A DNA stretch of 64,000 nucleotides. Source: Chitinophaga pendula (GTDB taxonomy: Bacteria; Bacteroidota; Bacteroidia; Chitinophagales; Chitinophagaceae). Shown piece after piece: positions 11,200 to 27,634 of the stretch; position 1 is the stretch's first letter, and each line of letters begins with the position of its first letter. Both the position numbers and the translations under genes were made by a program. The notes under the pieces are model-generated. The model was given only the letters and a program-made list of their open reading frames with translations, was not told the DNA's origin and searched no databases. The stretch covers positions 868,001-932,000 of the forward strand of contig NZ_CP077769.1 in NCBI RefSeq assembly GCF_020386615.1. Direction: 5' to 3'.

Positions 11200-14100
11200 G
11201 TAACAATATCCGGCAGGTGAACACCGCATTGATCAGACATGCTTTAAAGGCGATAGACCTCCTCGAAACAGAAGTGTCCGACCTCAGGGCCGCATCCAAC
11301 GAACCAGTGGCTATTATAGGTATGAATAACCGCTTCCCGGGTGGCGCAGATACACCGGAGGCTTTCTGGGAGCTGTTGCAACATCGTAGAGATGCTATCA
11401 GCGAAACCCCATTGAGCCGCTGGAACAAATCAGCCGTGTATGACCCGGATGTCAACGCACCTGGAAAAATATATAGCACCAAAGGGGGCTTCATCGACAA
11501 CGTAGACCAGTTTGATGCAGGCTTCTTCAATATATCCCCTATCGAGGCCATGATGATGGACCCGCAGCAACGCATCACGCTGGAAGCCTCCTGGCACGCA
11601 CTCGAAAATGCCGGCATACCACCCGATTCCCTGGCAAAGACCAGAACAGGTGTATTCGTTGGGATAGGACAAAATGATTATGCCTTCCTGACAACCCGGC
11701 AACTGGGAGATCATAACGTCAACGCCTATTACGGGCTGGGCAACGGCCATTGCTTTACCCCCGGCCGTATATCCTATCTCCTGGGTTTACATGGCCCTTC
11801 TTTCGCTGTAGATACCGCTTGCTCTTCCGCTTTATTGGCTGTACATATCGCTTGTCAAAGTCTGCGTAACCGGGAATGTGAAATTGCACTGGCAGGTGGC
11901 GTACAGCTCATGTTATCACCGGTAATGGGCATCTACCTCTCCCGTACCCGCGCATTGTCGCCTTCCGGATATTGCCGTTCCTTCAGTGCCGATGCAGATG
12001 GATTTGTCAGGGCGGAAGGGGTAGGTATGATCGTATTAAAACGCCTTCGCGACGCACAACGCGATGGCGACCGTATCCTGTCCGTTATCAAAGGTTCCGT
12101 AGTCAACCACGATGGTAACAGCAGCGGCATCACCGTACCCAACGGGCTGGCCCAGCAACAGCTATTACAGGAAGCACTGTCAGTAGCAGGTATACATCCC
12201 GATCAGCTGGCCTATATAGAAGCCCATGGTACAGGTACCGTACTGGGAGACCCCATAGAACTGGATGCCCTGGATACCATATATGCGGCAACACGCAGTA
12301 CCGACACCCCGTTATGGGTAGGAGCCGTGAAATCAAACATCGGACACCTGGAAGCAGCAGCAGGTATCGCCGGCCTGATAAAAACAACCTTGTCACTGCA
12401 ACATGGCCTGATCCCTGCCAACCTCCATTTTTCAGCTCCTAACCCGCAGTTTGACTGGAACAGCTCCGCTCTGCGCGTACCGGTGGAAAATGTGCCGATA
12501 TCACTGGGTATTACACCGATCGCTGGCGTCAGCTCCTTCGGATTAAGTGGTACCAATGTACATATGTTACTGGAAGCACCGGCAGCCATCACCCCCGCGG
12601 AAAAGATCGCCTTCCCCTTTCATATCATTACACTCAGTGCAAAAGAATTCCCCGCCTTATTGCAAAAGATCAGTGACCTGCGGGAATTTATAAAACACAA
12701 CCCCGAAGTGGCCATAGATGATATCGCATGGACCGCCAATGGAGGTCGCCAACATTTTAACCAGCGCATCGCCTGGATAGTAAAAGATAAAGAAACACTG
12801 CTGGCAGCCCTGACAGCCATCAGTAGTGAATCAGATATAAACACACATACCGAGACGCTGCAGCAACAACCGGTTAGTGAGCGTATAAACAGGTTAATAA
12901 CAGAACAAATACCATTTGCCGGCTGGGCGGGTGAGATGGCCAATGTCGGCTGGGAAACTGCCTTACAGGAGCTGGCGGCTATTTATATCTCCGGTCAGCG
13001 TATCCCCTGGCAACAACTTTATCAGGACTGTAACTATAACAAGATCGTACTGCCACTGATGCCGTTCAATCGTCAGCGTTACTGGGTAGACATGCTGCCG
13101 GGTGTTGAAAAACCAACGGCTGTCATAACAGAAGTACCCATACAACCAGAACGGAAAGATCCCGAGAAAACAGCCTACGACTACAGCTGGCTGCAACAGG
13201 CGTTACCCGCCAGCAAACGCCAGCTGAATGACGGAGAGTGGCTGATATTGATCGATGAGCCGGAAGAAAAAGAACATTGGCAGGAAATATTGGGAGAACA
13301 AACCGTATGGTTTGTACAGTTTGCCGCGAAACGCGAAGCGACCGTTGATGGTTATATCCTAAACCCTGATAAAGAAGACGATTGGCAGTGGCTATCCGCA
13401 GAACTCGCCGCTGCTGAACATCCGCTGCATATTGTTTACGCAGCCACCTTATCCGGCTATGCCGCAAAACAAAAGGGTATATCTGCGCCGGCTTTAGCCG
13501 TAACCGCCACCGCCGTTTTGCTCAAACTGGCGCAACAGTTTGCCCGCACAACCTATAGCCGCCAGACATCACTGTTTATCATCACTAGGGATGCGGTCGC
13601 CGTTACCGCAACAGACACATTGGAAGGATGGCAACAGTCAGGTATCATAGGCTTCAGTAAAAGTCTTTCCCTGGAAATGCCGGCTATGATGAGTGGGGTA
13701 CTGGATATACCCTCTTCGCTGGAACCCGAGACCTGGAAAGCTGTAATCAGTGCCTGGCTATCCGCTGCAGCAGAGCCTTTACAGGCTTATAGGGATAATA
13801 CATGGTGGGTACCCAGGTTAACACCGTTCAAAGGTGCCGAACTACCGGAAGATATCCAGATCGATCCCGAGGGTGCTTACCTGGTAACCGGTGGCACTGG
13901 ATACCTGGGTATCAAAGCCGTAAAATGGCTGTTGTCCAAAGGCGTACAGAAAATATTCGTCACAAGCCGCAGCGGCTGGAGTGGAGATAATAACCCATTC
14001 TTCGATCCGGGCACTACAGATACCAGCGCAGTAAGCTGGATCAAAGCAGATATCAGCGAAGCGGCAGCAGTTGATTTTCTCCTGGAAGAGATCAAAAAGC

Positions 14101-15101
14101 AATCCGATGGAAAACGGTTGGCAGGGATCGTACATGGAGCTGGTAGCGCTGGCTTCGCAGAGGCTACCCATATCAGCCGGGAAGCACTCACTGCCGTGAT
14201 CGCCTCCAAAGTATATGGTACCTGGTGGCTGTACGAAAGACTGCAGGATACACCGTTGGATTTTGTGATCGGTTTCTCCTCCATTTCCGCTGCATGGGGC
14301 TCTCATGGACAAACCCATTACTCTACAGCAAACCAGTTCCTCGATGCCATACTACATTTCTGGAACAGGAAAGGGCAGCGTGCACTGAGTGTACACTGGG
14401 GCCCCTGGTCCGGTGGAGGCATGGCTGGCGTAGAAGATATCGAAATGCTGGGTAAAAGAGGTATCAACGCCTTCCCTCCCGAACAAACAATGGATATACT
14501 CGAACTGTTCCTCCGGCATGGAAATGTACAACCCGTGGTCGTAGACGCTAACTGGGCGGTATTCGCTCCATTACTTGCTATGCTGGGACATGGACACCTG
14601 TTTGAATCCCTGGTAACACAGAATACACCTGGTGGCAGACAACAAGGAACAGTACAGACAGGATTCAGCCAGCTAAGAGCAGACATACAGGCGATGCCGG
14701 TCATCCAGGGTGAACAGGTACTATTGCAATTCCTGAAAGAACAGGTAGGAGAGATACTTGCCTACCAGAACGGACAATTACCGGATTCCCGCCAGGGACT
14801 CTTCGAAATGGGCATGGACTCCATGTCAGTGATACAACTCAAAGAAAGGATAGAAACACAACTGCAGATAGCCGTACAGGTGACAGATATCTTTGAATAC
14901 CGCACCATAGAACAGCTATGTAGCTATCTGCTGGAAATGATCTGTGAAACACAGCAACAACCATCCGTAGCCGCAAACGGTAGTACAAATAATACAACAG
15001 CATTCGATAACTACGGACAACCGGATGGCAGCCTGCCCGTAGATGCACTGCTGGAAAAATTATTTACTCATATCAAAACATTGGAAGAGTATGCAAACTG
15101 A
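11196..15101 (+). CDS. PKS module without acyltransferase: KS-KR-ACP
   Basis: This 1301-residue protein has a short N-terminal docking-like helix (about 1-32), a ketosynthase (38-452; Cys209 in DTACSSA, EAHGTGT, NIGHLEAA), a linker (to about 640), a ketoreductase and an ACP (Ser1209 in GMDSM). The KS is followed by the usual KS-to-AT linker and then directly by the post-AT linker ending FNRQRYW at about 624-630; the 300-residue AT is simply absent. The ketoreductase (about 885-1080) has an intact TGGTGYLG nucleotide motif and Tyr1042 in HYSTAN. It has a Trp in SAAWGS and no LDD motif, a pattern read as A-type. Malonyl units must therefore come from another AT, perhaps that of the preceding protein. 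It overlaps its neighbours at both ends, so translation is probably coupled. Confidence 0.92.
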   Translation: MSNNIRQVNTALIRHALKAIDLLETEVSDLRAASNEPVAIIGMNNRFPGGADTPEAFWELLQHRRDAISETPLSRWNKSAVYDPDVNAPGKIYSTKGGFIDNVDQFDAGFFNISPIEAMMMDPQQRITLEASWHALENAGIPPDSLAKTRTGVFVGIGQNDYAFLTTRQLGDHNVNAYYGLGNGHCFTPGRISYLLGLHGPSFAVDTACSSALLAVHIACQSLRNRECEIALAGGVQLMLSPVMGIYLSRTRALSPSGYCRSFSADADGFVRAEGVGMIVLKRLRDAQRDGDRILSVIKGSVVNHDGNSSGITVPNGLAQQQLLQEALSVAGIHPDQLAYIEAHGTGTVLGDPIELDALDTIYAATRSTDTPLWVGAVKSNIGHLEAAAGIAGLIKTTLSLQHGLIPANLHFSAPNPQFDWNSSALRVPVENVPISLGITPIAGVSSFGLSGTNVHMLLEAPAAITPAEKIAFPFHIITLSAKEFPALLQKISDLREFIKHNPEVAIDDIAWTANGGRQHFNQRIAWIVKDKETLLAALTAISSESDINTHTETLQQQPVSERINRLITEQIPFAGWAGEMANVGWETALQELAAIYISGQRIPWQQLYQDCNYNKIVLPLMPFNRQRYWVDMLPGVEKPTAVITEVPIQPERKDPEKTAYDYSWLQQALPASKRQLNDGEWLILIDEPEEKEHWQEILGEQTVWFVQFAAKREATVDGYILNPDKEDDWQWLSAELAAAEHPLHIVYAATLSGYAAKQKGISAPALAVTATAVLLKLAQQFARTTYSRQTSLFIITRDAVAVTATDTLEGWQQSGIIGFSKSLSLEMPAMMSGVLDIPSSLEPETWKAVISAWLSAAAEPLQAYRDNTWWVPRLTPFKGAELPEDIQIDPEGAYLVTGGTGYLGIKAVKWLLSKGVQKIFVTSRSGWSGDNNPFFDPGTTDTSAVSWIKADISEAAAVDFLLEEIKKQSDGKRLAGIVHGAGSAGFAEATHISREALTAVIASKVYGTWWLYERLQDTPLDFVIGFSSISAAWGSHGQTHYSTANQFLDAILHFWNRKGQRALSVHWGPWSGGGMAGVEDIEMLGKRGINAFPPEQTMDILELFLRHGNVQPVVVDANWAVFAPLLAMLGHGHLFESLVTQNTPGGRQQGTVQTGFSQLRADIQAMPVIQGEQVLLQFLKEQVGEILAYQNGQLPDSRQGLFEMGMDSMSVIQLKERIETQLQIAVQVTDIFEYRTIEQLCSYLLEMICETQQQPSVAANGSTNNTTAFDNYGQPDGSLPVDALLEKLFTHIKTLEEYAN

Positions 15102-17742
15102 GAACGCATTACAAGATGCTTTGTCACTGATGAAGCAATCTTACGATCAATTGAGGGCATATCGTGACAGAGACTATCGTCAACAGGAACCCCTGGCGAT
15201 TGTCGGTATGGCTGGTCGCTTCCCCGGCGAAGGCAGGGATATCAATGCTTTCTGGCAGATGCTGCTCAACGGGGAAGACATCGTAACAGAGATACCTCCC
15301 GAACGATGGGACCTCGAAGAATACTATGATCCCAACCCGGACGTAATAGGCAAAATATACAGCCGTTGGGGCTCTTTCGTGAAAGATATCGATCAGTTTG
15401 ACGCTGCATTCTTTGGTATCTCCCCACAGGAAGCATGGTCCCAGGATCCACAACAGCGCTTGTTACTGGAGTCTTGCTGGAGAGCATTCGAAAATGCCGG
15501 CTACCTGCCGGGGGCAGAACCAGATACCGGCGTATTCGTTGGCGTCTGTACCTCAGAATACCTGGTACGGATCACCCAGACACCTTTGGAAGAGCTGGAT
15601 AAAAGAACCATCCCCTATTTCAGCACAGGCAATGTGTTTAATGCTTTATCCGGCCGCCTCTCCTATGTGTTCGGTTTTCAGGGCCCTTGCGTAGCCATGG
15701 ATACAGCATGTTCCTCTTCCCTTGTCGCTTTACACCTGGCATGCAATGCCATCCGCCGTGGAGAATGTAAACAGGCCGTAGTGGGGGGCGTAAACCTGCA
15801 ACTCATACCGGAAAGTACGATGGCCATTTCTCATGCTCGCATGCTCTCCCCCGATGGCCGTTGTAAAACCTTTGATGCAGATGCCAACGGATATGTGAGA
15901 GGAGAGGGCTGCGCAGTGATCGTCATTAAACGATTGTCAGAAGCCATAAGGGATAACGATCGTATCCATGCCGTGATCAGGGGCAGTGCGGTCAACCAGG
16001 ATGGCGGTGGTAGCGGTTTCACAGTACCCAGCAGCAAAGCACAGGAGAAACTGATGCGTAAAGCCCTGGCCAGCGCAGGACTGGAACCGGGAGAGGTAGA
16101 TTACCTGGAAGCGCATGGTACCGGTACCTCCCTGGGAGACCCAATAGAACTATCCGCCGTACAGGCCGTATATGGCGCTGCCGCACGTCAGCGCCCGTTA
16201 TGGGTAGGCTCTGTAAAAACCAACATCGGCCACCTCGAAGCCGCCGCCGGCATCACCGGCGTAGTAAAAACCGCCATGTCTGTCAAAAACCGGATCATCC
16301 CGGCGCACCTGCACCTTAAAAATCCTAATCACCGCATCCCCTGGAGCAGATATAATATACAAGTGCCGCAGCAACAACAAAAATGGCCGGAGGTCAACAG
16401 GCCCGCAAGAGCTGCCGTAAGCGCCTTCGGATTCAGTGGTACCAACGCCCATGTCATCCTGGAATCAGCTCCGGAAACAAAACAGGATACATATACACCC
16501 GGAAAGATCACGCCGATCGATGGCTATCATTTCTTTTCCCTGTCAGCCCGCTCAGCAGATGCACTGATAGAATATGCAGACAAACACCTCGCGTTCCCTG
16601 ATCAGGACCTGCCCTTAAATATCTTCTGTAAAGCAGTACAGCGCATCAACCCACTTATGCGTTACCGCAAACACTTTATTGTACAGACAATAGAAGACCT
16701 TAAACAACAACTGCAACAGTTCCTGGACCAAGGAACCGATGCACTCGACGAACCAGCTAATGGCCGCGAACAATATGCAACGGCATTTATCTTCAATGAC
16801 AACGCAGACAAAGAAATACCGGCTCTCTATAAATCATTGTATGAACGATTCGCTACCTTCGCCGCATCAGTGGATGAACATGCCGGTTTTATCAGGAAGA
16901 ATAAAGGAACCGATATACTTAAATTATTGGACAACATTACTGCCGGACCTGAATGGACAATACCCGCCGCACATTTCGTATTCCAGTACGCTCTGACAGT
17001 ATTGCTGAAAGAATGGACAGTACTGCCCGACAGGGTACTGGGCTATGGCAGAGGGGAATACCTGGCCGCAACAGCAGCAGGCGTCATGAATGCTGAAGAT
17101 GCATTAAGGCTGCTCATCGCCCGTGAAGAAGGAAAAACAACTACACCGGAGATCGCGGCAGAAATGTTTGCCAACGTACTCGATTATGTAGTATTACGTA
17201 CACCGGTCATCCCTTTCATATCAGGTACAGAAGGCAAAGAGGTCAAGAAAGAATTGGCGACCAGGGAATATTGGCTTGCCCATGCTACCGGCAAGATCAG
17301 CCTGGATGCCGCCGTAGCGCTATTACATACCGTAGGCAGTGATAAAATATGCCTGGAATTCGGGGCAACAACGATCCAGCCTGCAGCTGGCAGCAAACAT
17401 AGATTCCATACAGTAGAACACTACAGGTCACTACTGGAAATATTAGGGGACTTGTACGACTCAGGATTCGAACTGGACTGGAATGCTTTCTATGAACAGG
17501 TACCAGTGCAAGTGATAGATGGATTGCCTGGATATCCGTTCCAGCTTAAACGTTACTGGCCGGATGAAAATATAGGCAACAGTAAAAGAGCCGATCGCCG
17601 TAATAAAAAACAATTGCTTGAATATCTGTACAACACCGCTTCCTGGACAGAAGAAGAACGTGCAATGATCGTAAATGTAGTCAATAGGTTACCCGAATAC
17701 CAGGAAAGCAGACAACCCGCACAACTCAGCATGACGGATTAA
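15091..17742 (+). CDS. PKS ketosynthase with inactive AT remnant, no carrier domain
   Basis: This is an 883-residue protein. I chose the ATG at 15091 (MQTENALQDALSLMKQSYDQ), which gives a docking-type helix and an 11-base overlap with the gene before; an earlier ATG at 15043 is possible. The ketosynthase (about 30-460) looks intact: Cys207 in DTACSSS, EAHGTGT, NIGHLEAA. The following region aligns with an AT that has decayed. The GHSxG elbow reads GYGRGEY, with Gly653 at the Ser position and Tyr at the His before it. The GQG motif and the HAFH segment are missing, yet the post-AT linker (GYPFQLKRYW) remains. No ketoreductase, ACP or thioesterase follows. The module therefore needs a carrier in trans, or passes the chain on without extension to the NRPS encoded next. 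Confidence 0.9.
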   Translation: MQTENALQDALSLMKQSYDQLRAYRDRDYRQQEPLAIVGMAGRFPGEGRDINAFWQMLLNGEDIVTEIPPERWDLEEYYDPNPDVIGKIYSRWGSFVKDIDQFDAAFFGISPQEAWSQDPQQRLLLESCWRAFENAGYLPGAEPDTGVFVGVCTSEYLVRITQTPLEELDKRTIPYFSTGNVFNALSGRLSYVFGFQGPCVAMDTACSSSLVALHLACNAIRRGECKQAVVGGVNLQLIPESTMAISHARMLSPDGRCKTFDADANGYVRGEGCAVIVIKRLSEAIRDNDRIHAVIRGSAVNQDGGGSGFTVPSSKAQEKLMRKALASAGLEPGEVDYLEAHGTGTSLGDPIELSAVQAVYGAAARQRPLWVGSVKTNIGHLEAAAGITGVVKTAMSVKNRIIPAHLHLKNPNHRIPWSRYNIQVPQQQQKWPEVNRPARAAVSAFGFSGTNAHVILESAPETKQDTYTPGKITPIDGYHFFSLSARSADALIEYADKHLAFPDQDLPLNIFCKAVQRINPLMRYRKHFIVQTIEDLKQQLQQFLDQGTDALDEPANGREQYATAFIFNDNADKEIPALYKSLYERFATFAASVDEHAGFIRKNKGTDILKLLDNITAGPEWTIPAAHFVFQYALTVLLKEWTVLPDRVLGYGRGEYLAATAAGVMNAEDALRLLIAREEGKTTTPEIAAEMFANVLDYVVLRTPVIPFISGTEGKEVKKELATREYWLAHATGKISLDAAVALLHTVGSDKICLEFGATTIQPAAGSKHRFHTVEHYRSLLEILGDLYDSGFELDWNAFYEQVPVQVIDGLPGYPFQLKRYWPDENIGNSKRADRRNKKQLLEYLYNTASWTEEERAMIVNVVNRLPEYQESRQPAQLSMTD

Positions 17743-17830: not shown

Positions 17831-20800
17831 ATGAGCCACTTTGATCACCCTATTTCTCAAGATACAGACATCAGGCACAACCTGAAAAAAGAAACAGGTA
17901 CCGGACAAAATAACCAGGCATGGCCACTCACAGCAGGACAACAATCACTGTGGCTAATGCAAAAAATGCATCCGGAAGATGTTACCTACAATACAGGATT
18001 TGCTATCCATATACCATTTTCACTCGACCCCGTGGTCATCCGCAAAGCCATGCGTAGCATGTGCAGCTGGTATCCCCTCTTCACCGCAATATTCCGCATG
18101 GGAACAACAGAGCCGGAATGCGTTACCGGGAAAACAATGCCCTCCCTCGAAATGGTAGATGCCTCCGGCTGGGAAGATGAAACGCTGCAAAGCAAGATAC
18201 TGGAAAAGCAACTGCTGCCGTTCGACCTTGAGAATGGACCCGTAGCCCGCATGTACATCTTCTCAAAAAATAGTGCAGAACATATCATCTTGTTCGTCGT
18301 CCATCATATCATCTATGACTTTGAATGTAAAGCCTTGATATATGAAGCCTTCATGCGACATTGTCAGGAAGTATACCAGGGTATGTCGCTTACCGGTGAA
18401 TTACCAACACCTAAACCATTCCGGGAGCATGTCATAGCCGAACGGGATCTCCTGGCAGGAGAGATGGGCAAAAAATACAGAGAGTTTTGGCAGCAGCAGG
18501 CTGGGGAATTTCCGGTAATGCGGGAACTGGCGGCCTATAGGCAACTACAAGATGGAGAAATGGACACTACGGCCGCCAGCACCTTTAAAGTAGATATCAC
18601 GCTATATCAACAGCTCAAAGAGCAAACCGGTCGTCAGAATGTCACCACTTTTGCCTGGCTGCAATCCGTATTTCAACTGCTGGTACATAAATATACCGGC
18701 TTGCAGAAAATCGTAACGGGCGTACCCGTATCTAATAGAGATCACAGACTGTTCAAAGATACCCTCGGATATTTTGTCAACCTGTTGCCGGTTACCAGTA
18801 CCTGGTATCCCAGGCATACATTTACAGAACATCTGCGGGACAGCACAAAAAATTTCATCCGGATATTGTCGCATAAACAATACCCCTTCTCCGATATCCT
18901 CGCGTTGGCAGATATCGACAGAGCGCCGGGAAAACATCCGCTGCTGCAGCATGTACTCAATTACCTGGTATTCCCAAAAGCTTCAGGAGGCGCCAAAGCC
19001 GATCAATACGGCAATACCTACTACGATCTGCCACAACAAAGCCCGTTCTCCATTGCCCTGGACGTAGTCGACGACGGCGAACAACTGCATATACAATGTA
19101 AATACAGAACGGCAGCCTACGATGATGCTTTTATAGAAGACCTCTGTCAACAGTATCTGTGGTATCTCCAGCAATCAATAGCCAAACCGGACGTTCCGCT
19201 CGATGAATGGCAATGGACAAGGCCAGCCTGGGAACAACAGCTGGAAGAATGGAATAGCGGTGTGATCGATCATAAGGACAATGAGGTAATACATCGGTTG
19301 TTCGCCACCGTAGCTGCCTTATATGCAGGCCAGGACGCTGTAGTAGCACCAGATACAAGTATCACCTATGGTGATCTTGATACCTACGCCAACCAGCTGG
19401 CACATTTTATACGGGTGTCATACCCTGCCTCAAAAGGCCAGGTAATGGCTTATATGCTGAAACGGTCGACAAGAGTAGTGGTGTCTATATTAGGCATCCT
19501 CAAAGCAGGGGCTGCATATATGCCTGTCGATCCCGACCTCCCGCCGGCTCGCATAAAAGCTATGTTACAAGCCACAGGATGTGAAGTGCTCGTCTGTGAT
19601 GACATCGCTCAGCTGGCATTGCTTGAATTGCCTGCTTACATACGTATAATAGCATTCAATAGTGACGAAGAACACATCCGCCGCATGCAGCAAGAGGAAC
19701 CGGATTGTCTGGTTACAGGAGAAGATACCGCATACGTGATGTTTACTTCCGGCTCTACAGGACACCCCAAACCTGTACAGGTACTACATGCAGGAGTAGT
19801 CAACCTGGTAAAAGATAACAAATGCCTCCCCATCGGTCCGGGTGATAATATGGCGCAGCTGTCGAATTATATTTTTGATGGCAGCACCTTCGAAATATTC
19901 GGCGCATTGCTGAATGGAGCAGGACTACATATCCTGCCGGTTTCAACGGTTTATTCTCGGGAAGCACTGCTGGCATATGTCAATGAACAGAAAGTAAATG
20001 TAGCATTACTACCCACTTCCCTGTTCAACCGTTTTGCCACAGAAGACCCTGCCTTTGTCGCCGCTTTCGACAGGTTATTTTTTGGTGGAGAAGCAGCCTC
20101 CCTGGAATACGTCAGGCAGGTAATGCCGTATTGTAAGCATGCAGGCGTATTGGTAAACGCATATGGCCCTACTGAATGTACCGTTATATCCTTGTATTAC
20201 CCGGTGTATGAACTGTCGGCATATAATGCTGATATACCATTAGGTCGTCCGCTCAATAATGCAAAGGTCTATGTCCTAGATGAACAACACCGCTCTTTAC
20301 CAATGGGCGTAGCCGGAGAACTGTATATAAGTGGTAAAGGTGTTTCAGGGGGCTACTTCAAACGACCCGATCTGAACGAAAGCCGGTTTATAAATGCGCC
20401 GTGGAATGACAACGAACGACTATATGCAACCGGCGACATAGTATGCTACCTGCCATATGGACAACTGCAGTTCGTAGGGCGAAGAGACCAGCAATTTAAA
20501 TTCAGAGGATACAGAATAGAACCAGGAGAGATAGAAACAACAATCTCCACATTCCCGGGTGTCAGCGCAGTATGGATACACAAACATCAGCCGGCTACCG
20601 GCCCCGCAGTGTTGATCGCCTTCGTGGAAACAACCATATCCGAAATAACAGCCGTAGTATTGACGACCTTCCTGTCCGATAAGTTACCACACTACATGAT
20701 CCCGGGTAAATATATACTGTTGAATACCTTCCCGCTCAACAGGCAGGGAAAAGTAGATCACCATGTTTTATTACAGCATATACAACAAGTAGGCGAACAG

Positions 20801-21103
20801 GAATATACTCCTCCGCAGACCTCCGAAGAAAAAACCGTAGCGGCCATCTGGGAAAGAGCCATGCACCTCGAACGGATCAGCATTCACGACAATTTCTTCG
20901 CTATAGGAGGTCATTCCTTACTGGCTGCCAGGATCATGGCAGAGATCACCGCGTACTTCGACGTGGAAGTATCCCTGGGTGCCGTATTCCGCTCACCCAC
21001 CATACATACGATAAGCAATGAGATCATTCGGCGAAAGGCTTCCACAGCGGGCATTACCCCCGAGATCAAACGGGCCGATCGCGGAAAGTTCATCCGACAC
21101 TAA
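17831..21103 (+). CDS. NRPS module: C-A-PCP
   Basis: This 1090-residue protein has a condensation domain (about 35-430; HHIIYD, His158-His159 to Asp163). An adenylation domain follows (about 470-960; TSGSTGHPKPV, AYGPTEC, YATGD, KFRGYRIEPGEIE, GKVD), then a peptidyl carrier domain (about 995-1065; Ser1029 in GGHSLL). Aligning by eye to GrsA PheA, the binding-pocket residues read D-G-F-L-F-G-A-V-I with the invariant Lys, which points to a hydrophobic residue of the Ile/Leu/Val sort; this is weak. As the first NRPS after the PKS proteins, its C domain should join the polyketide chain to this amino acid. There is no epimerase or methyltransferase. It follows the previous gene by 88 bases. An 18-codon open frame (17778-17834) ends on its start in an ATGA overlap. 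Confidence 0.93.
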   Translation: MSHFDHPISQDTDIRHNLKKETGTGQNNQAWPLTAGQQSLWLMQKMHPEDVTYNTGFAIHIPFSLDPVVIRKAMRSMCSWYPLFTAIFRMGTTEPECVTGKTMPSLEMVDASGWEDETLQSKILEKQLLPFDLENGPVARMYIFSKNSAEHIILFVVHHIIYDFECKALIYEAFMRHCQEVYQGMSLTGELPTPKPFREHVIAERDLLAGEMGKKYREFWQQQAGEFPVMRELAAYRQLQDGEMDTTAASTFKVDITLYQQLKEQTGRQNVTTFAWLQSVFQLLVHKYTGLQKIVTGVPVSNRDHRLFKDTLGYFVNLLPVTSTWYPRHTFTEHLRDSTKNFIRILSHKQYPFSDILALADIDRAPGKHPLLQHVLNYLVFPKASGGAKADQYGNTYYDLPQQSPFSIALDVVDDGEQLHIQCKYRTAAYDDAFIEDLCQQYLWYLQQSIAKPDVPLDEWQWTRPAWEQQLEEWNSGVIDHKDNEVIHRLFATVAALYAGQDAVVAPDTSITYGDLDTYANQLAHFIRVSYPASKGQVMAYMLKRSTRVVVSILGILKAGAAYMPVDPDLPPARIKAMLQATGCEVLVCDDIAQLALLELPAYIRIIAFNSDEEHIRRMQQEEPDCLVTGEDTAYVMFTSGSTGHPKPVQVLHAGVVNLVKDNKCLPIGPGDNMAQLSNYIFDGSTFEIFGALLNGAGLHILPVSTVYSREALLAYVNEQKVNVALLPTSLFNRFATEDPAFVAAFDRLFFGGEAASLEYVRQVMPYCKHAGVLVNAYGPTECTVISLYYPVYELSAYNADIPLGRPLNNAKVYVLDEQHRSLPMGVAGELYISGKGVSGGYFKRPDLNESRFINAPWNDNERLYATGDIVCYLPYGQLQFVGRRDQQFKFRGYRIEPGEIETTISTFPGVSAVWIHKHQPATGPAVLIAFVETTISEITAVVLTTFLSDKLPHYMIPGKYILLNTFPLNRQGKVDHHVLLQHIQQVGEQEYTPPQTSEEKTVAAIWERAMHLERISIHDNFFAIGGHSLLAARIMAEITAYFDVEVSLGAVFRSPTIHTISNEIIRRKASTAGITPEIKRADRGKFIRH

Positions 21104-21134: not shown

Positions 21135-24100
21135 ATGGAGCAAAATGTAGCAACCGGAGAGATATTCGCATTCCCCACTTCTGCTGCCCAACGCAGACTC
21201 TGGATATTATCCCGGTTTAAAGGAGCGAATGAAGCATATAATATCATCGGCGCATTAAAGCTGGAAGGTGACTTCCGTCCGGAAATATTCGAACAAAGCC
21301 TGGCATTCGTTACAGAACGACATGAAAGCCTGCGTACCACCTTCGAACCGGATGGTATGAATATACTACAGCTCGTACATCCGCATAAACAGGTATCCCT
21401 GCCGGTAATAACCATACACGATTCCCAGGAAGAAGAGAAGATTAAACAGCTGATCCGAGAAGAAGCCTCCACGCCATTCGACTTGGAGAAAGGCCCCCTC
21501 TATCGTATCCGCATTGCAAAAGGAAAACAAGCCACCTACCTGGTATGTTGCCTGCATCATATTATCGCAGATGGATGGTCCATGGAAGTGTTTATCAGGG
21601 AACTCTCCCTCACCTACAACGCCCTGCTGCATCAACAATCACCGGTCCTGCCTCCGATAGAACTGCAATACAGCGACTATGCAGTATGGCAACACGAACT
21701 GGAAACGAACGGTGGTATGGACACGTCCCTACAGTATTGGACAGAACGTCTCCATGGCGCACCACCCCTACTGGAGCTACCAGTAGATAACCCCCGCCCT
21801 GTCATGCAGACATTCGAAGGGGAAACCTTCGAATACCCATTGGATAAAGAATTGACCAACGCGGTAACTACCGCCTGCCGTCAATACGAAACCACACCGT
21901 TCGTATTGCTGCTGGCAGCATTTAAGGTATTATTATGTCAGTATACAGGAGAAGAAGATATCGTAACGGGAACACCCGTAGCCAACAGGGAACGCAAAGA
22001 ACTGGCCGGCATCATAGGCTTTTTCGTGAACATGGTCCCCATCAGAAGCCGGCTCTCCAACGATACCACCTTCGAAACATTACTGAACAGGCTCAAAATA
22101 ACAATGGCAGAAGACCTGGATCATCAACAGGTACCGTTTGAAAAACTCGTGGAACAATTGCCTTATAAACGAGCCGCCAGTTATCATCCCATATTCCAGG
22201 TACTCTTCGGAATGCAGGCTTTTGAAGAAACAGCGTTTGCGTGGGAAGGTGGTAAAGCAACCTTCTTGCCGGTAGATATCCCTTCCGCCAAATTCGACCT
22301 CTCCCTGACCATCAGGAAAGATGGCCCCGCATTCACCGCCGTTTGGGAATACAACACCGCCCTTTTCGAACAGTCGTCAGTGAAGAAAATGGCAACACAC
22401 TACCAGCAACTACTACGACAGCTGCTGGCACAACCGCAACAGCCAGTCGCCAGTATATCGTTTTTAGATAAAGACGAACGAAAACAATTATTGGTAGACT
22501 GGAATAAAACAGCAATACAAATACCCGTTCCGCATTCTTTTCATGAGTGGTTTGTCAGACAGGCACTATGTGCGCCGGGTAGAACAGCCGTGATAGATGA
22601 TAAACACACACTGAACTATCAGGAATTGAACCGCTGGTCCAACCGCTTGGCACATTATCTCCTGGCACAGGATATCTCAGCCGGACAGCCCGTAGGCGTC
22701 AGCCTCGAAAGGAACAGCGATATGCTGATCGCCTTACTGGCTATTATGAAAGCCGGCGGCGTATATGTCCCCATCGATCCGGCATACCCGGCAGAACGCA
22801 AACAGTATATCCTGCAGGATGCAGGTATTCGCTGCTTACTCACGCACCAGCGCTTGCAGGACCCGGCTGCAGATGGGATAAAAGTGATCTACATGGATGA
22901 AACAGACGCCGCCTGGAAAAATAAAGCGGCAGCACCGGTACAACAGATAGTGGCTGCTGAAGACCCCGTGTATATCATCTATACTTCCGGTTCTACCGGC
23001 CAACCAAAAGGAGTACGTATCCCGCATATCGCCCTCATGAATCTGTTGCATAGTATGCAACGCAAACTGCATGTCACAGCAGATGACCGCCTCCTGGCTG
23101 TCACATCCCTGTCTTTTGACATCGCCGGGTTAGAAGTATACCTGCCCCTCCTGTCAGGAGCAACCGTAGTGATCGCCCCGCGTAATGTGACACAGAATGG
23201 CATCGCACTGGCGAAAATGCTGGAAGAACACGACATCACCATAATGCAGGCTACACCCGCAACATGGATGATGCTCCTTGATGCCGGATGGAAAGGTAAA
23301 CCGGACATGACCGTTATCTGCTGCGGAGAAGCATTCCCACGCGAATTAGCTAATAAACTGCTGGCTGGTAACAAAAGCGTATGGAATGGCTATGGCCCCA
23401 CCGAAACGACCATCTTCAGCGCCATAAGTAAGGTCATGGAAAGTGATCGTTCCAACGTACCCATCGGCCGCCCTGTAGACAATACCTGCTTGTACGTCCT
23501 GGACCAATACCTCCAACCCGTTCCGCCGGGAATGGTGGGCACACTTTATATCGGCGGCCGTGGCTTAGCTATTGACTATTATAACCAACCGGCACTGACT
23601 GCTGGCAAATTTGTCGCAGACCCATTCAGACCGGGAGAACGCATATATAACACCGGCGACCGCGCCAGGTATCTTCCCGATGGCAATATTGAATATTTCG
23701 GAAGAGCCGACTATCAGGTCAAGGTCAACGGCTATCGTATAGAAACAGAGGAAATCTCCTATCACCTGTCCCAACAGGAGGGCGTGGCCAAAGTAGTCGT
23801 GACCGTAAGAAAGGATAACAATGCCATGAACCGGCTGGTAGCATACATCGTACCTGCTACCCCTGGACTCACGCCAGATGTATTACGTAACGCCCTACTG
23901 AAGAAACTACCAGTATACATGATCCCGGCATTTTTTGTCTTCCTCGAAAAATTACCGCTCACTCCCAATGGTAAGATCGATAGGAATGCGTTGCCGGAAC
24001 CAGACCTGTCCCATAGCAACTTTCGCCGTGAATACATTGCCCCGCAAACTAAAGAAGAAAAACTGCTGGTAAATGTATGGCAGGAAATATTGGGCACAGA

Positions 24101-26375
24101 CAGGATAGGCATCCACGATAACTTCTTCGACCTCGGCGGTGCCTCATTACAGAGCATCGGTGTCGTAATGAAAATGGCAGAGCAGGGATATAAAATGTTC
24201 CCCGAAACCTTGTTCGAATTCCAGACCATACACGAACTGGCACCAGCACTGACGCCTTTCAAAGAGGGGGAAGCAGCGGCTGATAAATATCGCTTGCAGA
24301 CATTGTCATTTACCGCAGACATGCTCTATCAGCAAGGACAACCTGCCGCCAATGACAGAGAAGCATTACGCATCAATATCGAAAGTTTCCATGCTTACCT
24401 CCCCGAAAGGATCATGACCTCCAAAGAAGTGCTGAACGGTTGCGTCAATACCGTCCGCTTCCCGATGGAAAAACTCACCGGTGTAAAAGCACGCCATGTG
24501 ACGGCAGAAGATGAATGCACCTTCGGGATGGCCGCCAAAGCAATGGAACGTTGCTTCGCCATGTCCCGCTATACCCCGGCCGATATCGATATCCTTATCA
24601 CCTGTAGCATATTCAGAATGGATGGCCAGGAACGCCTGGTGCTGGAACCTTCTATGGCCGCCCGCCTCGCTGCACAATTCGGTTGCAACAATGCCCTGAC
24701 CTTCGATATCTCCAACGCATGCGCGGGTATTTTCTCCGGCTTATTACTGGCAGATAACTATATCCGCACCGGTAGAGCCGGGCGCATCATGCTCGTCAGC
24801 GGAGAATACCTGACACACCTCACTCAAAATCACTTACCCGAAATAAAAGATTACCTCGACCTGGGAATCGCAGCCCTCACACTGGGCGATAGCGGACTAG
24901 CAATGGTCCTGGAGCCAACCACTACACCGGGCAAAGGTTTTGTCGATATCGACTTGTTCACCATGGGCGCTTACAGCGATCTCTGTGTCGTGAGGTCCAG
25001 CAAACAGGGAGCCGGCTTGTTAGTAAGAGCAGATGCCATCGGCATGATGGACGCCGGACATATGGAAACCGCCCGGCATGCATTGCAGACCATGATAAAA
25101 AACCGCTGGCAACCCGAACAGGTAGATTTCCTGCTCATGCACCAGGCCTCCAGCATCGCTATCGCCAATACCCGTATCGGCATCAATCGTTTCCTGGGCA
25201 AAGAACTGGCACATGCCAGTAATGTGATCGATAACATCTCCCACAGAGGAAATACCGCTACCACCACCCACTGGATAGCCCTGCAGGACCATATCCTGAA
25301 AGGAAATATCCCCTCCTGGCAGAACTTCCTGATGTATATCAGCGGATCTGGCCTCAATATAGGCACCGCCCTCTATGGAATGGACGATCTGCCGGACAGG
25401 GTCCGCCAGTACTGGGAAACCGGTATCCCAACAGAGAAAAAACAGCCGGAAAACATAACGCTGGTTAATACACTGGCCAAACGCACCCGCATAAAAGCCC
25501 GGGCCTTCAGCGCTCCCGTATCCGAAACAGAAGAGGGGCCATCCGCTTTACGCTGGGCCTCAGATGCCGCTGCCGCCTGTCTCGCACAGGTGCCGGAATT
25601 GGATCGCTCCGATATCGGCCTCGTATTCTATACCGGCGTACATCGCGACGATCATATCTACGAGCCGGCCATCGCTACCATGATCTGTGGCAACCTCAAT
25701 CTCAATGCTTACAACGGCCGCTCCCAAGGCGCACCGCTTACCTTTGGCATAGACCTGCTCAATGGCAACCTCGGCTTCCTCCAGGCCTGTTACACCGCTG
25801 GCGTCATGATGGAAACCGGCCGTACCTCCTACACATTGGTATGTACAGGCGAAATGGAAAACAATACCCTCAATCAACAGGCACCGGCAGGCATATACGA
25901 AGGAGGAGCAGCCTGGCTGCTGGAACAGTCAACAACCACTGAAGCGGGAATAGGGGAGTGCCTGTTCGAAAGCCACCCGGATTTACTGGAATATGGTGCC
26001 GCCTGGGTACAATGGACCAATGGAGATCCGCTGGTCAGCATCACCAGCATCGAGGCATATAGCAAAAAAATACTTCCATTGCTGAAACAACTGGCTGACC
26101 GCTTACTGAAAACCGCTGGCCTAAAACCCTCCGACATCAGTTACATCATCCCGCATTTCGCAGATCCGGTTACCGCCGCAGCAATACAGGCCAAACTGGG
26201 CTGGGAAGCCCCCGTTATCCAGCTACCTGAAGGCCCCGGCAACAGGCAGACACTTACATTACCCCTACTGCTCGATGCATGCGAACAGCAATATCAGCCA
26301 CAACAGGCACAAATCACCCTGATATTGAGCGCAGCTGCAGGTGGACAGCTGGGGGCCGCCCTCTACTACCACTGA
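21135..26375 (+). CDS. NRPS C-A-PCP fused to two tandem KASIII-like domains
   Basis: This is a 1746-residue protein, taking the ATG at 21135 (MEQNVATGEIFAFPTSAAQ); a longer frame opens upstream inside the previous gene. The condensation domain (about 15-440) has HHIIADG (His141-His142, Asp146). The adenylation domain (about 470-930) has pocket residues read as D-I-L-Q-I-C-G-I-F, partly like glycine codes beginning DILQ. The carrier has Ser1004 (GGASL). KASIII-like domain 1 (about 1085-1420) has Cys1196 (NACAG), His1336 (MHQAS) and Asn1373 (SHRGNT), a complete Cys-His-Asn triad. KASIII-like domain 2 (about 1440-1746) keeps His1674 and Asn1703, but Asn1545 (LNGNLGF) sits at the Cys position, so it should be inactive or differently active. 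No thioesterase is present, so domain 1 may release the chain by carbon-carbon bond formation. I know of no standard family with this architecture. Confidence 0.92.
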   Translation: MEQNVATGEIFAFPTSAAQRRLWILSRFKGANEAYNIIGALKLEGDFRPEIFEQSLAFVTERHESLRTTFEPDGMNILQLVHPHKQVSLPVITIHDSQEEEKIKQLIREEASTPFDLEKGPLYRIRIAKGKQATYLVCCLHHIIADGWSMEVFIRELSLTYNALLHQQSPVLPPIELQYSDYAVWQHELETNGGMDTSLQYWTERLHGAPPLLELPVDNPRPVMQTFEGETFEYPLDKELTNAVTTACRQYETTPFVLLLAAFKVLLCQYTGEEDIVTGTPVANRERKELAGIIGFFVNMVPIRSRLSNDTTFETLLNRLKITMAEDLDHQQVPFEKLVEQLPYKRAASYHPIFQVLFGMQAFEETAFAWEGGKATFLPVDIPSAKFDLSLTIRKDGPAFTAVWEYNTALFEQSSVKKMATHYQQLLRQLLAQPQQPVASISFLDKDERKQLLVDWNKTAIQIPVPHSFHEWFVRQALCAPGRTAVIDDKHTLNYQELNRWSNRLAHYLLAQDISAGQPVGVSLERNSDMLIALLAIMKAGGVYVPIDPAYPAERKQYILQDAGIRCLLTHQRLQDPAADGIKVIYMDETDAAWKNKAAAPVQQIVAAEDPVYIIYTSGSTGQPKGVRIPHIALMNLLHSMQRKLHVTADDRLLAVTSLSFDIAGLEVYLPLLSGATVVIAPRNVTQNGIALAKMLEEHDITIMQATPATWMMLLDAGWKGKPDMTVICCGEAFPRELANKLLAGNKSVWNGYGPTETTIFSAISKVMESDRSNVPIGRPVDNTCLYVLDQYLQPVPPGMVGTLYIGGRGLAIDYYNQPALTAGKFVADPFRPGERIYNTGDRARYLPDGNIEYFGRADYQVKVNGYRIETEEISYHLSQQEGVAKVVVTVRKDNNAMNRLVAYIVPATPGLTPDVLRNALLKKLPVYMIPAFFVFLEKLPLTPNGKIDRNALPEPDLSHSNFRREYIAPQTKEEKLLVNVWQEILGTDRIGIHDNFFDLGGASLQSIGVVMKMAEQGYKMFPETLFEFQTIHELAPALTPFKEGEAAADKYRLQTLSFTADMLYQQGQPAANDREALRINIESFHAYLPERIMTSKEVLNGCVNTVRFPMEKLTGVKARHVTAEDECTFGMAAKAMERCFAMSRYTPADIDILITCSIFRMDGQERLVLEPSMAARLAAQFGCNNALTFDISNACAGIFSGLLLADNYIRTGRAGRIMLVSGEYLTHLTQNHLPEIKDYLDLGIAALTLGDSGLAMVLEPTTTPGKGFVDIDLFTMGAYSDLCVVRSSKQGAGLLVRADAIGMMDAGHMETARHALQTMIKNRWQPEQVDFLLMHQASSIAIANTRIGINRFLGKELAHASNVIDNISHRGNTATTTHWIALQDHILKGNIPSWQNFLMYISGSGLNIGTALYGMDDLPDRVRQYWETGIPTEKKQPENITLVNTLAKRTRIKARAFSAPVSETEEGPSALRWASDAAAACLAQVPELDRSDIGLVFYTGVHRDDHIYEPAIATMICGNLNLNAYNGRSQGAPLTFGIDLLNGNLGFLQACYTAGVMMETGRTSYTLVCTGEMENNTLNQQAPAGIYEGGAAWLLEQSTTTEAGIGECLFESHPDLLEYGAAWVQWTNGDPLVSITSIEAYSKKILPLLKQLADRLLKTAGLKPSDISYIIPHFADPVTAAAIQAKLGWEAPVIQLPEGPGNRQTLTLPLLLDACEQQYQPQQAQITLILSAAAGGQLGAALYYH

Positions 26376-26416: not shown

Positions 26417-27634
26417 ATGCTTAAAGACGATAAAGTAGCAGTACCGGCAGTACCGGTGGCGGGTATCGATCCGGCCGTAGCAGTAGCCGGACAAGCCGTC
26501 AACCCGGCCAGGCTATTTTACATTGATTGGGTGAAAGCAGGCTGTATCGCCATATTGATACCATATCATGCGGCGTTGCTGTATTCCTCCTTTCCCTATC
26601 ACATGAAAAGTAAAGAAACATCCATCGCATTAAGTATATTCAACGCCATCGTACTCATCTGGTACGTAGCGGTACTAATGTTCGTGGCCGGATATGGCGC
26701 CCGCATAGCCATGATTAAACGCAACCCGCTGCAATTTATCACCGCCAGACTCAGTCGGCTCGTCATCCCCCTCCTGTTCGGTGTATTCGTGATAGTACCC
26801 CCTCAGATATACCTGGAACACCTCTACAAAGGAGAAATAGATTACAACTACTTCACCTGGTACACACAACACTACTTCACCAACCTCACCCCATATCCCG
26901 CAGGCAACCTCAGCTGGCACCACCTCTGGTACATCGGATACCTGGCAGTAATATCCGCATTGCTGCTACCACTGTGCGTTCGGATCAAGAAAGTCTCCCC
27001 CTTCCAGCGTATGCCAGGACTCAGAACGTTGCTGTCCTCCCGCTACGGTAATATCCTGCTAGTAGTGCCTATCTTAATGATAGAATTTTTCCTGAGGATA
27101 CATATACAGAGCGGAGTACTGGATATCATACACGATAGCCTGAATTTCATTGTCATGTGTTTTTACTACATATATGGATTCATGTTAGCCAGCGATTCCG
27201 CTATCTACAACGGATTCCTGAAAAGTCGCAAAATATGTCTGTCCTTCGCATTAATAAGTGTCTTCATCTACTACGGGGGCGTACTCACCGGTCTCATAGA
27301 TACCGCCCACTTTGACACTCTCACCGTCCAATGGATCAATGCATGGCGGGGGATGGTGGCCTGGTGTTTTACAGCCGCTATTATCGGATATGCATCCCGA
27401 TACCTCAATATCAATAATAAGATACTACGTTATGCCTCCCAGGCATTTCTACCGGTATATATCATACACCAGACGATCCTGTTTATATTGGCTTATTATG
27501 TGCTTGGAAGCGACATCAATCCATTCGCCGGATTCCTGTTACTGACAGTAAGCACATTCATTATCTCCATGCTGGTCTTCGAATTCGGTATCCGTCGATT
27601 TAAGATCACCCGGCTGCTATTCGGTATTTACTAG
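26417..27634 (+). CDS. Membrane acyltransferase, acyltransferase-3 family
   Basis: This 405-residue protein has about ten hydrophobic spans. It begins with a roughly 30-residue soluble tail and then RLFYIDWVKAGCIAILIPYH, which carries the His of the family's first helix. SWHHLWYIGYLAVIS matches the conserved HLWYL region of the acyltransferase-3 family, as in OpgC/MdoC-like and NolL-like proteins. Members move acyl groups, often acetyl or succinyl, onto sugars, lipids or antibiotics at the inner membrane. It lies 41 bases after the NRPS-KASIII gene and before the terminator, so it is probably co-transcribed and may decorate or help export the product. Its acyl donor and target are inference only. 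Confidence 0.85.
   Translation: MLKDDKVAVPAVPVAGIDPAVAVAGQAVNPARLFYIDWVKAGCIAILIPYHAALLYSSFPYHMKSKETSIALSIFNAIVLIWYVAVLMFVAGYGARIAMIKRNPLQFITARLSRLVIPLLFGVFVIVPPQIYLEHLYKGEIDYNYFTWYTQHYFTNLTPYPAGNLSWHHLWYIGYLAVISALLLPLCVRIKKVSPFQRMPGLRTLLSSRYGNILLVVPILMIEFFLRIHIQSGVLDIIHDSLNFIVMCFYYIYGFMLASDSAIYNGFLKSRKICLSFALISVFIYYGGVLTGLIDTAHFDTLTVQWINAWRGMVAWCFTAAIIGYASRYLNINNKILRYASQAFLPVYIIHQTILFILAYYVLGSDINPFAGFLLLTVSTFIISMLVFEFGIRRFKITRLLFGIY

Follow-up and report, generated by a model that had tools for sequence, protein, structure and literature searches.

Release of the chain from a nonribosomal peptide synthetase (NRPS) is normally the task of a thioesterase, a reductase or a cyclising condensation domain. 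Among enzymes of the ketoacyl synthase III (KASIII) fold, OleA is a homodimer that carries both a Cys and a Glu in each chain and acts on acyl-CoAs, and PqsBC of Pseudomonas is a heterodimer with a nucleophile of another kind. In the lipstatin system of Streptomyces toxytricini, a KASIII-like condensing enzyme acting on acyl-CoAs is divided between two separate proteins, LstA, which holds the triad Cys128-His271-Asn305, and LstB, which has no Cys; according to excerpts of PMC12141560, LstA Cys128, LstA His271 and LstB Glu60 are each needed for LstAB activity, the LstB substitution E60A abolishes it, and neither protein was obtained in soluble form without the other. The best reading of this is that LstB Glu60 is a catalytic residue lent to the partner subunit. 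Here we describe an NRPS encoded in a stretch of 64,000 nucleotides of the Chitinophaga pendula genome (contig NZ_CP077769.1, positions 868,001 to 932,000; hereafter the window), in which a Condensation domain, an AMP-binding domain and a peptidyl carrier protein (PCP) are followed by two KASIII-fold domains, D1 and D2, that reach the stop codon.

Judged from sequence, the closest known kind of this tandem pair is that of the LstA/LstB and Nocardia NltA/NltB-like KASIII pairs (NltA and NltB being the gene names that we assume for the latter), and not the ketosynthase/chain-length factor couple to which an earlier note on this DNA had likened it. Like LstA/LstB, the pair joins a partner with Cys, His and Asn to a Cys-less partner. 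Unlike LstA/LstB, it forms a single polypeptide with an NRPS carrier, and its substrate is presumably at least partly carrier-bound. As D1 and D2 share one open reading frame (ORF) and do not form a two-chain heterodimer, we class the pair as a variant of the LstA/LstB type. We regard it as probable that the pair is a single-chain, carrier-tethered, LstAB-like non-decarboxylative Claisen synthase, which would end the NRPS chain by joining it through a carbon-carbon bond to a second acyl thioester. No description of an NRPS with two KASIII domains at its end was found in titles or abstract openings of the open-access literature, among the matches listed. The bare fusion may already be known, and may have been noted in the LstAB paper, because that paper is cited beside 'naturally occurring fusion chimeras' in the excerpts of PMC12141560. 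Since LstA and LstB were reported there as insoluble when separate, a natural single-chain form would be useful for structure work.

Conservation and spread of the tandem pair

Conservation was read from two alignments, one of 88 rows (87 proteins and the window) and one of 64 of 80 genomic loci plus the window, the overlap between the two sets being unchecked. In the first, Cys1196, His1336 and Asn1373 of D1 are each kept in 88/88 rows, and the column of D1 Glu1171 is Glu in 86 rows, with Asp in the other 2. At the Cys site of D2, where the window has Asn1545, Cys occurs in none of the 88 rows, its place being taken by Ala (49), Ser (18), Gly (8), Asn (6), Asp (4), Pro (2) or Thr (1). The view of the earlier note that the NRPS carries two KASIII-like domains in tandem, forming an active/inactive condensing couple on one chain after a carrier, is upheld, and all six residues that it named (the D1 triad, Asn1545, His1674 and Asn1703) are correctly numbered. 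His1674 and Asn1703 of the window are exceptions, kept in just 2 and 4 of the 88 rows, and were for that reason rejected as catalytic remnants of the family; the D2 His column has Pro in 85 rows and the D2 Asn column Asp in 77. What is kept in D2 is a different set of residues. Arg1504, Glu1510 and Pro1511 are each invariant (88/88), which led us to reject D2 as a decaying duplicate. In the second alignment the D1 triad, the D1 Glu and the D2 Arg, Glu and Pro are each present in 65/65 rows. Both domains are predicted to take the thiolase/KASIII fold, neither a different one, and the model of the tandem has a predicted TM-score (pTM) of 0.94.

The tandem pair is a conserved family found in six phyla, either fused to an NRPS or free-standing. 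With the pair as query, 7990 proteins of a collection were scored and 87 matched at E 0.001, 84 of these with a Condensation domain; D2 alone as query gave 9 protein matches, 6 of them on contigs 1-7 kb long. A scan of genome contigs found the pattern in 509 stretches, 476 of which encode some relative; the best 80 were kept as loci, and the rest of the 476 may include plain KASIIIs. D1 and D2 lie on a single ORF in 80/80 kept loci, partly by construction, since the query was the tandem. The 80 loci are spread over Mycobacterium, Mycolicibacter and relatives and Nocardia, Ktedonobacteria, another Chloroflexi metagenome-assembled genome (MAG), Planctomycetes, Bacteroidota, one acidobacterium and Lentisphaeria. 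The order of a PCP and two KASIII domains, for which the earlier note proposed to search, is found in 46 of them behind condensation and adenylation domains (C-A-T-pair, T being the carrier; one at a contig edge). The pair stands alone in 25 loci (one at an edge), and the remainder are A-T-pair (4, two at an edge), T-pair (1, at an edge) and proteins that begin with a fatty acyl ligase (FAAL), either FAAL-C-A-T-pair (2) or FAAL-T-pair (2). The latter two (L066 and L068) have no amino acid module in that protein, so that the chemistry of the pair is not tied to peptides. Occurrence among near relatives is patchy: at E 1e-60 the pair is present in 2/79 genomes of the genus Chitinophaga (the window's own and that of Chitinophaga sp. 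CF118) and in 1/195 sampled genomes of the family (the window's own), which suggests horizontal spread.

The FAAL-T-pair proteins of these two Planctomycete MAGs are adjoined by a gene family with a weak match to NoeE (L068:11977-13158 and L066); the sulfotransferase-like match in L068 reaches 25.9 bits, under the cut-off.

Sequence relationships and the D2 glutamate

Nocardia amamiensis, whose genome also encodes an NRPS with the pair, has separate, adjacent A-type and B-type KASIII genes (L097:4868-5917 and 5926-6840) with no NRPS. They are followed by an OleC-like gene (584.5 bits, over the cut-off) and an OleD-like gene (199 bits, under the cut-off). This is the make-up expected of a nocardiolactone cluster, which we infer the locus to be; 36 homologous copies of that cluster in Nocardia are mentioned in excerpts of PMC7413640. 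The B-type protein lacks the Cys and shares the Glu motif of D2: among the 120 matches listed (337 in all), Glu57 is Glu in 120/120 proteins and the Cys site is Ala in 96 and Gly in 24. A tree of 53 rows was built from 17 D1 and 17 D2 domains (the window and 16 loci), 6 B-type proteins, 1 named A-type protein, 6 OleA-type and 6 FabH-like proteins; LstA, LstB, PqsB and PqsC have no rows in it. D1 groups with the Nocardia A-type protein (support 100/99) and D2 with the B-type proteins (100/98). L084, D2 of L040 and L110, the last a long branch beside the D2/B-type group, are long and unsure rows. One row entered as FabH-like (L117, G003:C31:21509-22438) proved to be A-type; it is a second A-type KASIII of N. 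amamiensis and groups with the NltA-like protein of that species. The ketosynthase/chain-length factor of type II polyketide synthases (PKSs) is an active/inactive condensing couple as well, but it belongs to the PF00109/PF02801 ketosynthase family. Both of these domains are absent from the NRPS at E 0.001, and with PF00109 missing this identity was rejected.

A fragment taken from the D2 of one Bacteroidota relative (L026) has OleA of Xanthomonas as its top match in the PDB, though weakly (E 0.0009). The OleA motif S-V-x-R-D-x-L-E-P and the position of Cys143 (PDB 4ktm, 5vxd and others) align with this fragment so that the D2 Glu falls on residue 117 and the Cys site on 143, as counted from the printed chain positions. 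OleA shares the fold of the pair and differs from it in having no NRPS, and its E117A, E117Q and E117D forms are represented in the PDB. D2 Glu1510 probably matches the essential LstB Glu60, a correspondence drawn through the Nocardia B-type Glu57 and its position and not from the LstB sequence, and most likely D2 lends this Glu to D1.

The relationships of D1 bring in two other readings. OleA as top PDB match of a D1 fragment was not borne out, FabHs ranking first, and the best NCBIfam match of D1 is likewise FabH-type. D1 might thus condense the peptidyl chain decarboxylatively with malonyl-CoA or malonyl-ACP, as FabH does and with the Cys-His-Asn triad of decarboxylating KASIIIs, D2 being structural and the product a C-terminal beta-keto acid or methyl ketone. 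We consider this unlikely: D1 groups with the Nocardia A-type protein and stays far under the FabH cut-off (TIGR00747, 292 bits; D1 119, D2 43.6), and a purely structural D2 would leave unexplained both the invariance of Glu1510 and Arg1504 and the linkage to ole genes described below. The earlier note had proposed release by Claisen condensation with a malonyl carrier; termination by Claisen chemistry stands as our own reading, and the decarboxylative use of malonyl does not, the invariant OleA/LstB-type Glu of D2 and the ole linkage in four relatives counting against it. Neither domain reaches the OleA-like family cut-off (PRK09258, 285 bits; D1 94.5, D2 41.8, the latter without the Cys). 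D1 has weak sequence similarity to PqsC (E 5.7e-8), and the fold searches list PqsBC entries, which might speak for a PqsBC-like reaction, in which the Cys is acylated by the PCP-bound chain and condensation follows with a soluble nucleophile that is not a thioester. The ole linkage better suits fatty acyl substrates, and such a reaction is hardly to be expected; PqsB by name is absent from the fold lists, which says nothing either way.

Ole-type genes and the proposed reaction of the pair

In four Bacteroidota, oleB-, oleC- and oleD-type genes share a contig with the pair. They lie upstream of a free-standing pair, with 1-2 genes between, in Ferruginibacter (L010) and a Bacteroidota MAG (L058), and about 13-14 kb from it in Algoriphagus (L026/L092) and Flavihumibacter (L032/L099). 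All four OleC-type proteins score 700-710 bits (family cut-off 478); for the three scanned with the two models for beta-lactone synthetases, the scores of 614-634 bits fall short of the cut-offs. OleD scores 380-417 bits in three, below the cut-off of 580, and the fourth was assigned by 61% identity to the first. The haloalkane dehalogenase-like proteins near the pair, which we take to be OleB, score 171 and 175 bits against haloalkane dehalogenase models in the two scanned, below cut-off. Three MAGs (L025, L055, L079) have oleB- and oleC-type genes, two of them also oleD, with the same neighbours on a contig other than that of the pair. An OleC-type gene is present in 16 of the 32 genomes searched, lying away from the pair in Planctomycetes, the acidobacterium and Nocardia; OleC was not found for Pontibacter (L051) or Gramella (L072), L042 being outside the search, nor in CF118 among 30 candidates scored. 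No protein of the Ferruginibacter and Algoriphagus genomes matches PRK09258 better than D1 does (128.5 and 131.9 bits, both short of the cut-off); the third linked genome searched has another KASIII that outscores D1 (170.7 bits). The OleC/OleD pathway requires a beta-keto acid, according to excerpts of PMC7064751. From the linkage and the rank of D1, the beta-keto acid used by OleD in these bacteria most likely comes from the pair.

The Bacteroidota block with oleB/C/D-type genes close to the pair (L092:5094-12496, L099, L010, L098, L101) includes in most cases a DUF6629 gene, a gene of 484-491 aa (no Pfam match in the one copy scanned) and a sulfotransferase. In some of these loci there is also what we take, from its start, to be an APS-kinase-like gene near the pair, and the product there is possibly sulfated.

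In the reaction that we propose, D1 Cys1196, with His1336 and Asn1373, would be acylated by one thioester, and D2 would insert Glu1510 into the D1 pocket to deprotonate the alpha-carbon of a second acyl thioester. The resulting enolate would attack the acyl-Cys with no CO2 loss at the condensation, and hydrolysis would release an alpha-branched beta-keto acid, which would decarboxylate to a ketone unless a reductase intercepts it. One partner would be the aminoacyl or peptidyl thioester of the adjacent PCP, either as electrophile on Cys1196 or as nucleophile, and the pair would be the chain-terminating domain, taking the place of a thioesterase. It is from the invariant OleA/LstB-type Glu of D2 and the ole linkage in four relatives that we infer a condensation that uses a second acyl thioester and proceeds without decarboxylation; the activity and direction of the pair, its second substrate, cross-domain catalysis by Glu1510, use of the PCP-bound chain and release are proposed in the same conditional sense. 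At E 0.001, a scan of six ORFs between positions 4483 and 27634 of the window brought up neither a thioesterase nor a terminal thioester-reductase domain, which leaves the KASIII pair as the sole visible chain-terminating element. A widespread, as yet unassigned terminal pair that ended chains through a non-decarboxylative carbon-carbon bond would add to NRPS release chemistry, and its function would help predict the products of many FAAL-PKS-NRPS clusters.

The ole genes also bear on two readings without a second acyl chain. KASIII-fold acyltransferases exist and are a precedent for a pair that would acylate an oxygen or nitrogen nucleophile with the chain. Those of the CerJ/DpsC/ChlB3 kind carry Cys-His-Asp, whereas D1 has Asn in 88/88 rows, and the oleC/oleD-type genes linked in four relatives require a beta-keto acid, which makes this reading very unlikely. 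Equally improbable, in our estimate, is that D1 cyclises an N-acyl-aminoacyl thioester in a tetramate-like manner or works as a thioesterase. Tetronates are made by FabH-like enzymes (according to excerpts of PMC12304814) and AbyA1 is among the D2 fold matches, but such closure requires neither a second chain nor ole genes, and the pair also follows a FAAL and carrier with no amino acid module.

Several observations weigh against the LstAB-like synthase that we favour. FabH comes close behind OleA for the L026 D2 fragment (E 0.0016), the best PDB sequence matches of D1 are FabHs and not OleA, and the fold scores fail to separate FabH, PqsD and OleA. The Nocardia pair, itself only presumably of nocardiolactone, stands in for LstA/LstB. 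In the window's genome no OleC-family match was found at E 1e-120 among 30 of 160 candidates scored, and OleD-family matches reach at most 83.1 bits against a cut-off of 580. Of seven other genomes with the pair, five also carry a separate true OleA (422-447 bits), so that the pair is not a stand-in for OleA there. The short-chain dehydrogenase/reductase (SDR) after a mycobacterial pair (L002) is HpnA-like (257.6 bits, versus 98.7 for OleD-like), and OleD as a general partner of the pair is weakened. Finally, the third PKS protein in the window has no acyl carrier protein (ACP).

The gene cluster of the window and other neighbours of the pair

The genes from 4483 to 27634 run on the same strand and can be read as a hybrid FAAL-PKS-NRPS line (Table 1), of which the FAAL protein is likely the start.

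Table 1. Features of the NRPS and its gene cluster (positions in the window; KS, ketosynthase; AT, acyltransferase; KR, ketoreductase).
Feature	Position	Strand	Remarks
FAAL-ACP-KS-AT-KR-ACP	4483..11199	+	Pfam/NCBIfam
KS-KR-ACP module	11196..15101	+	domain profile scan
KS with degenerate tail, ACP not found	15043..17742	+	domain profile scan and CF118 comparison
C-A-PCP module, code DGFLFGAVI	17831..21103	+	domain profile scan, code reading
NRPS C-A-PCP-KASIII(D1)-KASIII(D2, Cys-less)	21135..26375	+	1746 aa; ORF open from 21018
Condensation domain	21174..22493	+	Pfam PF00668, 375 bits
Adenylation domain, code DILQICGIF	22557..23975	+	PF00501 and PF13193
Peptidyl carrier protein	24063..24242	+	PF00550
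D1, KASIII of LstA/NltA-type	24348..25445	+	end of range is linker to D2
D1 Glu1171	24645-24647	+	
D1 Cys1196	24720-24722	+	
D1 His1336	25140-25142	+	
D1 Asn1373	25251-25253	+	
D2, Cys-less KASIII of LstB/NltB-type	25446..26372	+	
D2 Arg1504	25644-25646	+	invariant
D2 Glu1510	25662-25664	+	invariant
D2 Asn1545	25767-25769	+	at Cys site
Acyl_transf_3 membrane acyltransferase, next to the NRPS gene	26417..27634	+	PF01757

The third PKS protein has 899 aa and an intact KS motif, and neither a GHSxG acyltransferase motif nor an ACP was found in it. Its CF118 homologue (L120:10610-14764) has 1385 aa in the order KS-KR-ACP, so that the window copy is one without the KR-ACP tail. With this KS protein lacking an ACP, the product of the window copy of the line may be shorter, or the line may be impaired. 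Whether the Acyl_transf_3 protein belongs to the pathway is uncertain, and no match to it was found within the 40 kb surrounding the sister cluster of CF118.

Nine-position adenylation codes were read for 62 domains. The code DILQLG(M/L)(I/V)W, which we take as Gly-type, is found in 12, D(P/V)WH(F/I/V)SL(I/V)D, which we take as Ser-like, in 34 (24 being one mycobacterial code), and other codes in 16, one partial. The code of the last module in the window appears Gly-like but has no assignment, and its CF118 counterpart is DILQLGMIW. If these codes are correctly read, the carrier beside the pair would usually hold N-acylated Gly or Ser. This allows a tentative extension, which we hold to be doubtful, in which the NRPS is a carrier-bound counterpart of serine palmitoyltransferase. 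A FAAL, often with a PKS module with KR upstream, would leave the PCP loaded with an N-(3-hydroxyacyl) amino acid, and condensation with a second chain in either direction, followed by CO2 loss, would yield an N-acyl 2-amino-3-ketone from Ser or an N-acyl amino-methyl ketone from Gly, the skeleton of 3-keto-ceramide or of its 1-deoxymethyl form. A downstream reductase (extended SDR, 23/79 loci) would then yield a ceramide-like lipid. Such a route, if real, would be independent of pyridoxal phosphate (PLP) chemistry and present across several phyla.

The 1.6 kb after the pair were surveyed with eight probes, the best being taken, in the 79 loci with enough sequence. Besides the 23 extended SDRs and one on the opposite strand, there are 2 classical SDRs, 10 P450s, 5 thioesterases and 7 phosphopantetheinyl transferases, two of these on the opposite strand; 31 loci, including the sister of the window (L001), gave no probe match. 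The 23 extended and 2 classical SDRs and the P450s start directly after the pair and the transferases further on.

In CF118 the pair is followed (L121:3385-8694) by a mutase-like protein with B12-binding, MeaB and MM_CoA_mutase domains, which we take to be IcmF-like, a FabH and an enoyl-ACP reductase. These may be the source of a special acyl chain, and no counterparts of them were found next to the pair of the window. In Saprospiraceae/Lewinella (L027, L062, L064, L065, L067) the pair lies in a different cassette, where it is followed by a fatty acid hydroxylase-type gene, a weakly matching desaturase-like gene (34 bits, far under the cut-off) and a gene presumed from its start to be GH3-like. 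In four of these five loci, two SDRs follow the pair as well.

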